From a virus, in IMG/VR virus record IMGVR_UViG_3300025108_000059, positions 1 to 56,749 of that record: 56,749 nt of DNA; one strand, 5' to 3'. Made by a program: the position numbers and the translations under genes. Positions 1,298-49,575 of the stretch are shown in pieces. Below the pieces are notes generated by a model. The model saw nothing but the letters and a program-made list of their open reading frames with translations, ran no database searches and had not been told where the DNA came from. Numbering within the stretch: the stretch's first letter is position 1; every line of letters begins with the position of its first letter.

Positions 1298-1585
1298 TCA
1301 TTGTAGTTCTGGAAACATTTGTTTCACATAGTTTTTAACAATAACTTTTGTATCGTTATCGATTCCATTAACTCGTTCTCTTGGGTTTTCTGTTCCAAAC
1401 GTTTTAATTTCTTCTTTAGCAAGATGCAAAAGTTGTCGTTTATTCATTTGTTGTAGACTTCTTAAATCTATAGATTCGCCAATTAAGGCGCTTAAGATAT
1501 AATCACCTACATCGTCATTACTAAGCGGAACCTCAATTTTAGCATTGATTCGCTTAATTCCATCGTTATATTTTTGTGCTCTCAT
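1298..1585 (-). CDS. hypothetical protein, 95 aa
   Basis: Small charged protein rich in Lys/Arg/Asp with predicted helices (RSLQQMNKRQLLHLAKEEIK). No family recognised. It is the first gene behind the sigma70-type promoter at 1622-1650. Its end lies 14 nt upstream of the chosen start of the glycine-zipper gene, so the two are probably co-transcribed. Confidence 0.7.
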   Translation of the reverse strand: MRAQKYNDGIKRINAKIEVPLSNDDVGDYILSALIGESIDLRSLQQMNKRQLLHLAKEEIKTFGTENPRERVNGIDNDTKVIVKNYVKQMFPELQ

Positions 1586-1621
1586 TTTAGTATCATTTCT
1601 TTATTTAATACAATTATATAT

Positions 1622-1650
1622 AATATAACAGTAAGATAGTCTTTTGTCAA
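1622..1650 (-). promoter_or_regulatory. sigma70-type promoter with imperfect spacer palindrome
   Basis: Minus strand TTGACA (1645-1650), 17-nt spacer, TATATT (1622-1627). The spacer contains AAGACTATCTT, an odd-centred version of the AAGA-NN-TCTT element seen at 28.8-30.1 kb. Confidence 0.75.
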
Positions 1651-27908: not shown

Positions 27909-28772
27909 TTACAGTCGACGCATACATGTAACTTCTGCAACACGTTTCCACTTCTCGCCGCCCATTGCCTTCTTAAGGTCTGCAAGTTTGGTAACCATAC
28001 GCAAACTAATTTCACGCATTATTTCTTTGTTATCTAACAAAAATGCCATAAGCTCATTTTGTTCCGCTGCACTAAACTGATATTCGTTAAGCATACCATC
28101 TGCAACAATCTGCTTACAACGTAATACTTTTTCACGCATTGTATCCATTGTAAGATCTAAGTAGTGACAACGTGACATGATAGCATCTAAGTGATCTTTA
28201 ATCTTACCACGCACCTTATCAAACTTAAGGTTAGTAATAAAGATAACACTACCTTTAAATTCAAAGCTATCTGGAATACCTTCTCGACGTAGCAATGCAC
28301 TGTCTGTATTCCAGTTTAGTGTTCGCTTTTTACTTGAGTCAAGTGCCGCTTTAAGCAAGTTAAGACTTGTCTCATCATACAACACTGTATCACAATCGTC
28401 TAGCACAAGAACACTATTACGATCTGCATTTTCAAACAAAACTTTATACAAACCAATTGCACTTGAGGCACCTTTGATAACTTCAAAACGCATCTTGTTG
28501 CCTGCAAGTTTATCAAACAAACTGTTCTTTTCTAAAACAGCTTCTACACCAAATGACTTACCAACGCCTGGAGGTCCGGTAACAACCATACCACGCACAA
28601 CGCCATCAATTGACGCTTGTGTCATATCATCTAAGATACTAAAACGTTCACGCATACGTTCAATAATCTGATCATCGCTTTCATTTGGATTATCAACTGC
28701 ATCATTTACAACTTCAATTAGTTTAGTTGCTTTCGAAGGACGCCCACGTTTTTTAGTAACTAACTTTTGCAT
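27909..28772 (-). CDS. AAA+ ATPase
   Basis: 287 residues. Walker A is VVTGPPGVGKSFGVE (about 66-80) and Walker B SVLVLDDCDTVLYDE (about 120-134), with a sensor-like VIFITNLKFD. The N-terminal 25 residues are basic (KLVTKKRGRPSKATK, an AT-hook-like RGRP). It is not gp44: clamp-loader zinc and RFC motifs are absent. It has its own promoter, AGGAG site and terminator, so it is a single-gene early unit. Confidence 0.85.
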   Translation of the reverse strand: MQKLVTKKRGRPSKATKLIEVVNDAVDNPNESDDQIIERMRERFSILDDMTQASIDGVVRGMVVTGPPGVGKSFGVEAVLEKNSLFDKLAGNKMRFEVIKGASSAIGLYKVLFENADRNSVLVLDDCDTVLYDETSLNLLKAALDSSKKRTLNWNTDSALLRREGIPDSFEFKGSVIFITNLKFDKVRGKIKDHLDAIMSRCHYLDLTMDTMREKVLRCKQIVADGMLNEYQFSAAEQNELMAFLLDNKEIMREISLRMVTKLADLKKAMGGEKWKRVAEVTCMRRL

Positions 28773-28804: not shown

Positions 28805-28833
28805 ATATTACAGTAAGATGTCTTACTTGTCAA
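28805..28833 (-). promoter_or_regulatory. sigma70-type promoter with palindromic operator
   Basis: Minus strand TTGACA (28828-28833), 17-nt spacer, TAATAT (28805-28810). The spacer is a perfect inverted repeat AGTAAGA-CA-TCTTACT (28812-28827). Leader of about 30 nt with AGGAG before ATG 28772. Confidence 0.85.
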
Positions 28834-28841
28834 CCTTTAAT

Positions 28842-29192
28842 TTACGCTACTTCTTTGAAACCAAAGTTAGCAACAACTTGTTTATTACCTGCTTCGTCTT
28901 CAATAATGTCGCCTACTGAACATGAATACATTGGAGCCAAACGCTCAATGTTTTCTTCTGGACCCATGTTACCTGTATGAAATACACCATCAAGATTATC
29001 AGCAGTAATGTTTGATACATGTGTGTAATATCCACGTCTAAATGCATCACCGGCAACCATTCCTGTATCACTCTTACTAAGACCCATGTCTAACTTTAAA
29101 GACTGCTTATGAACTGCATCATGCCCTTCTGCATTGATTAAGTCAATTTCAGCGTCTGTTAAGTGTATTTGGTATAGTTTAAATTGTGCCAT
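28842..29192 (-). CDS. conserved hypothetical protein, 116 aa
   Basis: Small alpha/beta protein (FKLYQIHLTDAEIDLINAEG, then CSVGDIIEDEAGNKQVVANFG). Its stop lies 8 bp before the -35 box of the next unit. It has its own operator-type promoter and an AAGGAAGGA site. No family recognised. Confidence 0.65.
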   Translation of the reverse strand: MAQFKLYQIHLTDAEIDLINAEGHDAVHKQSLKLDMGLSKSDTGMVAGDAFRRGYYTHVSNITADNLDGVFHTGNMGPEENIERLAPMYSCSVGDIIEDEAGNKQVVANFGFKEVA

Positions 29193-29226
29193 TTTTACGT
29201 CCTTCCTTTATTGTTAATATACTTAT

Positions 29227-29255
29227 ATTATACAGCAAGATGTCTTGGTTGTCAA
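29227..29255 (-). promoter_or_regulatory. sigma70-type promoter with palindromic operator
   Basis: Minus strand TTGACA (29250-29255), 17-nt spacer, TATAAT (29227-29232). Spacer palindrome CAAGA-CA-TCTTG (29236-29247). Drives the 116-aa gene. Confidence 0.88.
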
Positions 29256-29264
29256 CTAAATCAG

Positions 29265-29295
29265 CAAGAAAAAAACCCTTATATATCAAGGGTTT
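29265..29295 (-). terminator. rho-independent terminator
   Basis: Minus strand AAACCCTT/AAGGGTTT stem with 7-nt loop and a TTTTTTTCTT tail, downstream of the 244-aa gene and 10 bp before the next -35 box. Confidence 0.88.
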
Positions 29296-29311
29296 AAAAC
29301 TTTTTTTGAAA

Positions 29312-30046
29312 TTATTTTACTAAAGTTAGCTTAACTCTGTTAAAAAGAGTCTCTTTTGCGTTACTATACTTGCTTAATTCCTGTTTATTAACAGTTCCAC
29401 GTATAGTTATTGTTTTGCCTTCGATAATATCAGTTAGATCTGGCTGTTCTCTCCACCAAAACTTAACAATATCTCGGTTATCAGATACGCATGTAATCAT
29501 GTAAACGTCACTTGACTGTATAAACTTAACATCTATTACATCTACTTCAATGTCATAGCGAGCGCCTTTTTTACCAACATATTGGCTTATATGCTTTAGT
29601 TGAGACATTGTGTCGTTAAGTGCTTCACGCTTCTGGTCAATCTTTAAAGAATTTGGAACACTTGCAAGAATACTTACATGGAAATTATTAACATCATCAG
29701 AGGTTGCTCTTACTAGTCCACTTTCAAAGTTAGTAAGGCCACCGCCAAGTTTTTTCATCATTAATTTACCATTAATGCGTTCAATTTCTGCGGTTGCTTG
29801 ATCTACGTATTTTTGATTAGGAATGTATTTTCCTTTAAAGTTTTTTACGGTTTGAATGATAACTGTTTTGTTATCTTTAATATCAGTGTAGATTTGATTT
29901 CCATCTTCGTCTACTGTATTAGTAGGTTCTTTATAACCGTATCCGCTTTTAACAAAGCCTTGTGCGTCAAATACTTCAAATGAGATGGCTAATATTTCAG
30001 CCGGTGTATAATTGCTTATATCATTTTTTACTTGTGTTGCTGACAT
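29312..30046 (-). CDS. hypothetical protein with OB-fold-like C-terminus
   Basis: 244 residues. The C-terminal 80 residues (YDIEVDVIDVKFIQSSDVYMI, DIVKFWWREQPDL, GKTITIRGTVNKQEL) have the strand pattern of an OB-fold. The N-terminal half is alpha/beta with many charged residues. Nucleic-acid binding is possible. It is a monocistronic unit with an operator-type promoter, AGGAGA site and terminator. Confidence 0.6.
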   Translation of the reverse strand: MSATQVKNDISNYTPAEILAISFEVFDAQGFVKSGYGYKEPTNTVDEDGNQIYTDIKDNKTVIIQTVKNFKGKYIPNQKYVDQATAEIERINGKLMMKKLGGGLTNFESGLVRATSDDVNNFHVSILASVPNSLKIDQKREALNDTMSQLKHISQYVGKKGARYDIEVDVIDVKFIQSSDVYMITCVSDNRDIVKFWWREQPDLTDIIEGKTITIRGTVNKQELSKYSNAKETLFNRVKLTLVK

Positions 30047-30080
30047 AGTATTTCTCCTACTAATTAAACTTTATAATAAT

Positions 30081-30109
30081 AGTATACGGTAAGAAGTCTT
30101 ACTTGTCAA
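30081..30109 (-). promoter_or_regulatory. sigma70-type promoter with palindromic operator
   Basis: Minus strand TTGACA (30104-30109), 17-nt spacer, TATACT (30081-30086). Perfect palindrome GTAAGA-CT-TCTTAC (30089-30102) in the spacer. Confidence 0.88.
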
Positions 30110-30122
30110 CCTTTTTTTAGTC

Positions 30123-30154
30123 AAGAAAAAACCCAGTCCTAAAACTGGGTTTTT
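30123..30154 (-). terminator. rho-independent terminator of the structured RNA
   Basis: Minus strand 9-bp stem AAACCCAGT/ACTGGGTTT with 6-nt loop and TTTTTTCTT tail, 3 nt after the closing helix of the RNA. Confidence 0.9.
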
Positions 30155-30373
30155 AAATAAGCAAAATAGGGAGGACTGGGGTGCACCTCCAAGTAGCACA
30201 TCTAGATACCTTTTCTAACTACACTACCACCTACTCCTGCGTATCCGCAATGTGACTCCCTCCGTTTTCCGGGTAAAGCCTGGGTATAACCCCTGAGCAG
30301 TCAAGTTCGACGCCTAGGTAACGCCTCTTCCTTGCACTATAAACATTGAGCCGCTAAACTCTTTGTTGCTTAT
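30123..30373 (-). ncRNA. orphan structured non-coding RNA (about 220 nt plus terminator)
   Basis: No credible reading frame covers this gap. The minus-strand RNA is closed by ATAAGCAA (30373-30366) pairing with TTGCTTAT (30164-30157). Inside lie a 13-position stem with one mismatch (30227-30215 with 30205-30193), a TGCG-GATA-CGCA hairpin (30249-30238), CCG-GAAAA-CGG (30272-30262), GGG-TTATA-CCC (30292-30282), a TGACT/AGTCA helix enclosing the last two, and a GGAGG/CCTCC arm. Its promoter puts the 5' end at the first base of the closing helix. It does not match tmRNA, RNase P, 6S or a riboswitch that I know. Confidence 0.8.
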
Positions 30374-30379
30374 GTATTT

Positions 30380-30408
30380 AATATAATACATCTTGACCGA
30401 AAAGTCAA
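30380..30408 (-). promoter_or_regulatory. sigma70-type promoter of the structured RNA
   Basis: Minus strand TTGACT (30403-30408), 17-nt spacer, TATATT (30380-30385). The inverted repeat TTGAC-N6-GTCAA (30393-30408) covers the -35 box, a different operator from the AAGA-NN-TCTT type. Confidence 0.82.
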
Positions 30409-48060: not shown

Positions 48061-48492
48061 TTAACTACCGGTAACAAGTGCAAGCGATCCATCGTCTTGC
48101 ATTTCAAAATCTTCAATGTAAATGTGCCAATCACCAACAGCTGCTTTAGCCTGTTGAAAACAACTTTCAGCGGCACGCCAAAGTTCGCCAACGGTACCAT
48201 TTACAGCCATTGAGCTGAACTCAATCCAAGTAACTTCACTGTCTAGTGTATCTCCCATTGATTCAATACACTTGTATGTAACTTTGCGTGGCTTGTTAGT
48301 AAAGATCTCAAAGTCCAACGGCATTGCAGTATCGCTCATTGACCAAACAGTTTGGTAACCTTGCTGTTCTTTAAGATCATTCCAATGTTCAATCTCAAGT
48401 GTCATATCATCCACGTCTTCAAATTTCACTCCTTCAAAGTGTAATATCATATCATCTACTGTATCGTCAAATTTTCCTAGTGCTTTAGACAT
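48061..48492 (-). CDS. acidic hypothetical protein, 143 aa
   Basis: Asp/Glu-rich alpha/beta protein (GKFDDTVDDMILHFEGVKFE, IYIEDFEMQDDGSLALV). No family known. Monocistronic: AAGGAAG site and an operator-type promoter upstream. It lies between the basic 434-aa gene and the SbmA-like gene. Confidence 0.65.
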   Translation of the reverse strand: MSKALGKFDDTVDDMILHFEGVKFEDVDDMTLEIEHWNDLKEQQGYQTVWSMSDTAMPLDFEIFTNKPRKVTYKCIESMGDTLDSEVTWIEFSSMAVNGTVGELWRAAESCFQQAKAAVGDWHIYIEDFEMQDDGSLALVTGS

Positions 48493-48523: not shown

Positions 48524-48552
48524 AGTATAAGATATCTTGGTGCATTTGTCAA
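48524..48552 (-). promoter_or_regulatory. sigma70-type promoter with offset AAGATATCTT palindrome
   Basis: Minus strand TTGACA (48547-48552), 17-nt spacer, TATACT (48524-48529). Palindrome AAGATATCTT (48529-48538) sits about half a helical turn closer to the -10 than in the 28.8-30.1 kb set. Confidence 0.85.
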
Positions 48553-48603: not shown

Positions 48604-49575
48604 TTATTTTTCTTTGATTTGTCTTTCAAATTCTCTTAAACGTTTGAACACACTCATTAACTCAATAAGTGTTGGCCACGCTCTAAAGAGATATTGCATA
48701 CTACCTTCAACACGTCCAAATGCACGAATAATCTGTTGCATTACACCTAGTGTTACAACGCCGGCTACAATAGCTGGTGCTAAGAACACATAAGCTGATA
48801 ACACGTTTGCTTGTAAGTATGTAATACGTCCTACATTAAAATACAAATAACGCAAATAAGACTTAAAGTGAATACTACGAACATCTTGGAAAAGTTCGTT
48901 AATAGTTTTTGGTCTCACATTGCCATCATCTTCTGCGATAACAAGTATTTTTCTGTATGCCGCTTCTTTCTTCTGCAAATCATATTCAACACCAACTAAG
49001 CGTAATATCCAACCTAGTGCTATTAAGAATAATGTTCCGCCTACTGACCAAACAATAGCACCTGTAACAAGTCCATATTGCCAATCACCAAAGAAGAAGA
49101 TAGGAATACCTACTGATAGTCCTAATAGAATAGGAACGAACTGAACTAGAACCATAATTGATTCAATAAAACTTGTTCCTAATCCTTCCATAATACGACT
49201 AAACTTAATAGTATCTTCTTGCACACGCTGAGCGGCGCCTTCGATAGTTCTAGCTTTGTCATATACACTATGATACCATTCAACCATTGCTGTGCGCCAT
49301 CTAAATAGATAGTGTGCTGTAAAGAAACTTACTACTACTGCGATACCTACATAGATAGCCGCCAAGTATAAGAAACTTGCTAAACTACCCCAATATTCAC
49401 CTATGGTGATTGCATTGGGTGTTGCTAATGCCTTTTGAATCATATCATAAAATTGGCCGAACCATTCGTTAATCTTAACATCAATTTCGACTTGTACCCA
49501 AAGCGATGATAGGATTATTGCTGATCCTAGCCAGGACCATAAAGCCCATTTTTTTACTGTAAAAAATCTAAACAT
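48604..49575 (-). CDS. SbmA/BacA-family peptide transporter
   Basis: 323 residues. Long matches in pattern to E. coli SbmA, in order: INEWFGQFYDMIQKAL, HYLFRWRTAMVEWY, RTIEGAAQRVQEDT, SFIESIMVLVQFVPILLGL, GAIVWSVGGT, EAAYRKILVIAEDD, RYLYFNVGRITYLQ, APAIVAGVVTLGVMQQI and WPTLIELMSVFKRLREFE. SbmA (406 residues) has about 80 extra N-terminal residues; here the first span is lost but the core is intact. The family imports peptides across the inner membrane. Single gene with its own terminator. Confidence 0.92.
   Translation of the reverse strand: MFRFFTVKKWALWSWLGSAIILSSLWVQVEIDVKINEWFGQFYDMIQKALATPNAITIGEYWGSLASFLYLAAIYVGIAVVVSFFTAHYLFRWRTAMVEWYHSVYDKARTIEGAAQRVQEDTIKFSRIMEGLGTSFIESIMVLVQFVPILLGLSVGIPIFFFGDWQYGLVTGAIVWSVGGTLFLIALGWILRLVGVEYDLQKKEAAYRKILVIAEDDGNVRPKTINELFQDVRSIHFKSYLRYLYFNVGRITYLQANVLSAYVFLAPAIVAGVVTLGVMQQIIRAFGRVEGSMQYLFRAWPTLIELMSVFKRLREFERQIKEK

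Follow-up and report, generated by a model that had tools for sequence, protein, structure and literature searches.

Phage P22 Arc is a small dimeric repressor whose operator lies between the −35 and −10 elements of the ant promoter, where it excludes RNA polymerase. MetJ requires at least two tandem 8-bp boxes, and activators of the MerR family bind palindromic sites between −35 and −10 in promoters with spacers of 19–20 bp. In the cluster A mycobacteriophages, one phage regulator acts at more than 20 operators or stoperators distributed over the genome; these sites are 13 bp long, asymmetric and bound by a monomer, and many of them act on elongation (PMC9283540). For jumbo phages, a review names the host polymerase and phage sigma factors, and a term search of its text gave no mention of repressors (PMC13282480); our search of the literature found no report of the motif described here or of jumbo-phage early repressors. 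Little is known about the timing of gene expression in jumbo phages without an RNA polymerase of their own.

The window analysed here, a 56.7-kb virus record that is probably a fragment, contains three minus-strand promoters (28805–28833, 29227–29255 and 30081–30109) that carry the palindrome AAGA-NN-TCTT at an identical place in the 17-nt spacer. All three have the layout TTGACA-NNN-AAGA-NN-TCTT-NNNN-(TATAAT-like), and AAGANNTCTT begins 3 nt inside the spacer in each. The promoter at 28833..28805 (TTGACA-AGTAAGACATCTTACTG-TAATAT; −35 at 28833–28828, 17-nt spacer, −10 at 28810–28805) contains a perfect 16-bp palindrome at 28812–28827 (AGTAAGA-TG-TCTTACT, arms of 7; core AAGATGTCTT at 28815–28824), which is kept in relatives, and precedes a minus-strand gene (27909–28772) for a 287-aa AAA ATPase of phrog_1250. 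The promoter at 29255..29227 (TTGACA-ACCAAGACATCTTGCTG-TATAAT; −35 at 29255–29250, 17-nt spacer, −10 at 29232–29227) has a putative operator with arms of 5 (CAAGA-TG-TCTTG, 29236–29247) and serves a gene for a 116-aa protein of unknown function (28842–29192, minus strand). In the promoter at 30109..30081 (TTGACA-AGTAAGACTTCTTACCG-TATACT; −35 at 30109–30104, 17-nt spacer, −10 at 30086–30081), the arms are of 6 (GTAAGA-AG-TCTTAC, 30089–30102); the gene behind it (29312–30046, minus strand) encodes a 244-aa protein of unknown function with a weak match to phrog_3628. The coordinates, the arm lengths (7, 5 and 6) and the shared spacer position given in the initial annotation agree with the sequence as read. 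Counted alone, the 5 motif copies in the window are a modest excess over the mean of 1.35, and 3 of 100 shuffles reach 5, so the signal is carried by position. Three of about 16 promoters have the motif at one fixed offset, which gives P ~ 3 × 10−11 under an independent-base model with both motif and offset chosen post hoc.

To follow the motif beyond the window, we used about 20 relatives that had been retrieved by protein similarity alone, with the motif playing no part in the choice; every record is an incomplete metagenomic contig. At loci found with the 244-aa protein, the palindrome is retained at the homologous promoters, with 2-bp centres that vary freely (CA, CT, AG, CG or GT) and outer pairs that are T/A or C/G. 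A perfect operator stands upstream of 12 of the 14 AAA ATPase orthologues; for the 244-aa gene, 3 of 14 orthologues are without one. The 116-aa gene has orthologues in 13 of 23 contigs, most of them straight behind an operator promoter. Across 25 records, the forward pattern gave 83 matches and the reversed control 1; several of the large contigs were selected for carrying the motif, which inflates absolute counts and leaves internal controls unaffected, so the evidence lies in the ratio and not in the count.

We also found that the motif is concentrated in promoters. Its density in the intergenic DNA of nine large related contigs is 38-fold that in coding DNA (56 intergenic copies, 12.6 per 10 kb, versus 30 coding copies, 0.33 per 10 kb), and none of the shuffled, odd-centred and re-spaced controls, including AAGANNNTCTT, AAGANTCTT and TCTTNNAAGA, was enriched in the same intergenic versus coding comparison. 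In a de novo scan of all 4+4 palindromes with gaps of 0–10, the motif ranked first, with 54 observed versus 1.5 expected. Called promoters hold 51 sites, compared with 56 intergenic copies in a nearly identical set of contigs. When promoters of the nine large contigs were called blind to their spacers, they either had the motif intact or departed from it by two mismatches or more, with no single-mismatch versions among these calls; the wider set contains a few one-mismatch forms, for example in the AAA promoter of the distant relative G004. The initial annotation had proposed a regulon under one dimeric regulator with operators in promoter spacers, an idea that turned on whether the motif recurs at further promoters in this phage and in related ones. 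Such promoters are strongly enriched in it, which supports the core of that proposal: a palindromic site inside or overlapping the −35/−10 region is common to several promoters and conserved against background.

A logo of 136 non-redundant sites yielded the extended consensus AGYAAGACRTCTTRCT, in which the columns for TTGAC and AAGANNTCTT, on which the sites were selected, are fixed by construction. The flanks are conserved as well, with A/T-rich AAAGG before −35 and GTATA after −10. The promoters consist of TTGACA, 17 nt, TATAAT and then a leader with a median length of 33 nt; nearly all spacers are 17 bp and the hexamers are consensus. In the main class, the 16-bp operator extends from about −29 to −14 and fills the 17-bp gap between −35 and −10.

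The position of the operator within the gap is restricted to a few registers. At 39 sites, the second base of the 2-bp centre is 9 bases ahead of −10; at 7 sites the distance is 7 bases, and at 4 sites it is 4. In the whole virus collection, measured from −35, offset 3 occurs in at least 120 stretches and offset 5 in 73, and the neighbouring offsets 4 and 6 are nearly empty (2 stretches and 1 stretch), the latter serving as a register control. For offset 8, the count was 100 stretches, obtained with a less strict pattern that is more prone to chance matches. Orthologous genes can differ in register. The genes at G005 15942 (register 3) and G010 25447 (register 5) encode proteins that are 94% identical; the AAA ATPase of G043 departs from all the others in having register 8 instead of register 3; and the pair formed by window position 48552 and G020 12374 has register 8 versus register 3. 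This turnover between orthologues argues for an operator recognized by a trans-acting dimer rather than for a sequence recognized by polymerase. At G043:C1:3841 on the minus strand, we observed an operator that overlaps the −35 hexamer (TTGACAAGACGTCTTG), possibly a further register.

The initial annotation had added two less regular sites to the three main promoters, and these fared differently. The first is in the minus-strand promoter of a 143-aa gene (48552..48524; −35 TTGACA at 48552–48547, 17-nt spacer, −10 TATACT at 48529–48524), where AAGATATCTT at 48529–48538 is placed 5 bp closer to −10 than in the main promoters, in register 8, with one base in common with the −10 element. The gene behind it (48061–48492, minus strand) encodes a protein of unknown function, and the orthologous gene at G020 12374 (40% identity) has its operator in the canonical register 3, which supports including the shifted site in the set. 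Near this promoter, window positions 48604–49575 encode a phage SbmA/BacA-family membrane transporter (PF05992, E = 6.5e-140) with orthologues in 10 contigs. The second is the odd-centred version in the minus-strand promoter at 1622..1650. This form is present in the window and is not conserved as a palindrome: relatives have AATGAGTGTCTTACTGT or AAAGGCTATCTTACTGT, in which only the right half is kept, and AAGANNNTCTT is enriched nowhere in the intergenic versus coding comparison. We therefore judged this promoter, which has the half-site TCTTACT only, to be outside the set. The 95-aa gene at window positions 1298–1650, whose −10 adjoins this half-operator, is conserved in 13 contigs. We considered its product as a ribbon-helix-helix regulator and rejected it on an AlphaFold model that is all helical.

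Taken together, the operator-like conservation of AAGA-NN-TCTT, its fixed registers, the turnover of these between orthologues, its restriction to promoters and its near-absence from cellular genomes make it very probable, as far as sequence comparison can tell, that the motif serves as the operator for a single sequence-specific protein, probably a dimer, that controls a scattered regulon in a clade of jumbo phages. In the mechanism that we propose, the host-type sigma70 promoters would be strong by default and would fire with host polymerase alone. A regulator, probably a dimer, would bind the operator (for example, AGTAAGACATCTTACT), and because the operator fills the gap between −35 and −10, the bound protein would exclude RNA polymerase and repress sterically, so that the promoter would be shut off whenever the regulator is present. 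Consensus hexamers at 17-bp spacing favour repression, and from this promoter geometry and general knowledge we infer repression rather than activation; the regulator presumably binds as a dimer and is of phage origin. The arrangement is classical, and the operator and its regulon appear to be new.

These sites resemble each of the known systems in part. As with Arc, the operator lies between −35 and −10, although the dimeric repressor that excludes polymerase is Arc's and is only proposed here. Arc differs in acting at one locus through a longer operator of another sequence, whereas here a single palindrome recurs at many promoters, and a search of 12 records gave no RHH_1 protein over the cut-off. 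The likeness to MetJ is in the sequence of the met box AGACGTCT: AGAC[AG]TCT is found within the most frequent operators, and an exact met box within the CG-centred quarter of the sites (35 of 136). By contrast with the two or more tandem 8-bp boxes of MetJ, each promoter here has one box, which has extra conserved flanks and is tied to the promoter spacer; MetJ was not among the families listed in Pfam scans of small open reading frames (best 25 for each contig). The cluster A system shares with our proposal one phage regulator and many sites over the genome. Its stoperators are asymmetric, oriented with transcription and also found outside promoters, whereas the sites described here are palindromic and confined to promoters.

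We searched for a gene encoding the regulator, including one with the same operator in front, as the initial annotation had suggested, and found no such gene. A doubtful candidate is an 86–89-aa winged-helix protein of the HTH_39 family (PF14090), which would fit within the operator model. In several relatives, its gene is flanked by those for the 244-aa protein and the AAA ATPase. The protein matches the family over the cut-off in G009, G010, G012 and G013, and HTH_39 was the sole DNA-binding repressor family among the Pfam matches listed (best 25 families each) for the small open reading frames of G010, G001, G002, G005, G015 and G011. The predicted structure is a winged helix (mean pLDDT of 67), close homologues have operators about 880 bp upstream and 350 bp downstream, and the gene's own promoter is without an operator, which we counted in its favour. 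However, homologues with an identical recognition-helix sequence occur near nrdA in operator-free contigs, which makes HTH_39 a weak candidate. Its presence does not track the operator, as some operator-free contigs have it and some operator contigs do not (all of them incomplete), and it was not found in the available sequence of the window, its near relatives or the 184-kb G011, which are likewise incomplete contigs. The operator half-sites are also closer together than those that most winged-helix dimers use. Foldseek gave weak winged-helix matches only, a PDB profile search with the HTH_39 family gave nothing, and no HTH_3 protein scored over the cut-off. Separately, the 116-aa target was rejected as the regulator, being acidic and showing no match to a DNA-binding family.

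We considered whether the palindrome could instead be bound by an activator, or by a polymerase or sigma factor modified by the phage, and thus mark a class of promoters that is switched on. MerR-type palindromes between −35 and −10 provide a precedent, and the conserved AAAGG and GTATA flanks would fit such a reading. However, MerR-type activation needs spacers of 19–20 bp, which are not seen here, where nearly all are 17 bp; the consensus hexamers need no activator; and three registers relative to −10, with switching between orthologues, are more easily reconciled with a block than with a polymerase contact at a fixed place. We regard activation as unlikely. It is also quite improbable that the sites are bound by a host-encoded regulator whose regulon the phage has borrowed. 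Exploitation of host regulators by phages is known, and DUF1127 and DUF6356 proteins in the 204-kb relative G010 hint at an alphaproteobacterial host. However, the strict pattern has no match in about 85,000 prokaryote species genomes, and a looser one matches 30 unrelated genomes once each, as by chance; scattered single matches of this kind make a host regulon unlikely.

The promoters could also be copies of one ancestral promoter in which the palindrome is a functionless relic, as members of the class share flanks such as AAAGG-TTGACA and GTAAGTATA. This is very improbable: the arms do not vary, unlike the centre, leader and flanks; the nine large contigs have no single-mismatch forms; and the same gene has different registers in different phages. 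Finally, short perfect inverted repeats in promoters recall the DNA hairpins of N4-type virion RNA polymerase promoters, an explanation with next to no chance of being correct given that a centre of 2 nt leaves too little room for a loop and the hexamers are those of a textbook sigma70 promoter; the repeat is upstream of the start and so is not an RNA hairpin either.

Returning to a repressor operator as the preferred reading, 104 operator promoters with a first gene fall into 40 families, most of which are small proteins without an assigned function; the named targets include the AAA ATPase, ribosomal protein S21 and proteins resembling a UV endonuclease and an endolysin. With such targets, 'early', as the initial annotation called these promoters, is at most a tentative label. 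The single-stranded-DNA-binding protein (SSB) of the window is 46–58% identical to SSBs of jumbo phages such as Sinorhizobium phage Phosso, PA5oct, Atu_ph07 and RaK2. In the isolated jumbo relatives Phosso, PA5oct, Atu_ph07, XaC1, Vibrio 2.275.O, GAP32 and RaK2, the motif is at control level with one mismatch allowed, and a blastn comparison of operator promoters with phage isolates gave weak chance matches only. These results provide an operator precise enough to be tested and a list of target genes for a widespread uncultured clade, and the natural register shifts between orthologues form a data set on which operator positions a promoter tolerates. More speculatively, a host-sigma70-dependent clade of jumbo phages, spanning marine and soil viruses, might run a genome-wide on/off programme through a dedicated repressor of its own that represents a new type of DNA-binding protein, with operators hopping between a few permitted registers.

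We made several further observations. The small open reading frames of G010 include host-like ClpP, ribosomal protein S21, NifU, Fe–S assembly proteins and S-adenosylmethionine decarboxylase, and sequences resembling IF-3 and ClpS were recognized by eye only. In the distant relative G024 (G024:C1:38258-38272, locus L353), the promoter spacer of the 244-aa orthologue contains another palindrome, CACGCA-gaa-TGCGTG, which is present in a single copy in that contig and may reflect a regulator with changed specificity or chance. Additionally, window positions 30120–30408 on the minus strand contain an apparently noncoding structured RNA of about 230 nt with its own promoter (30408) and terminator, which matched no Rfam family at the gathering score. 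This RNA is conserved in the distant relatives G012, G027 and G043, and at 24 of 55 predicted pairs both sides have changed with the pairing kept.
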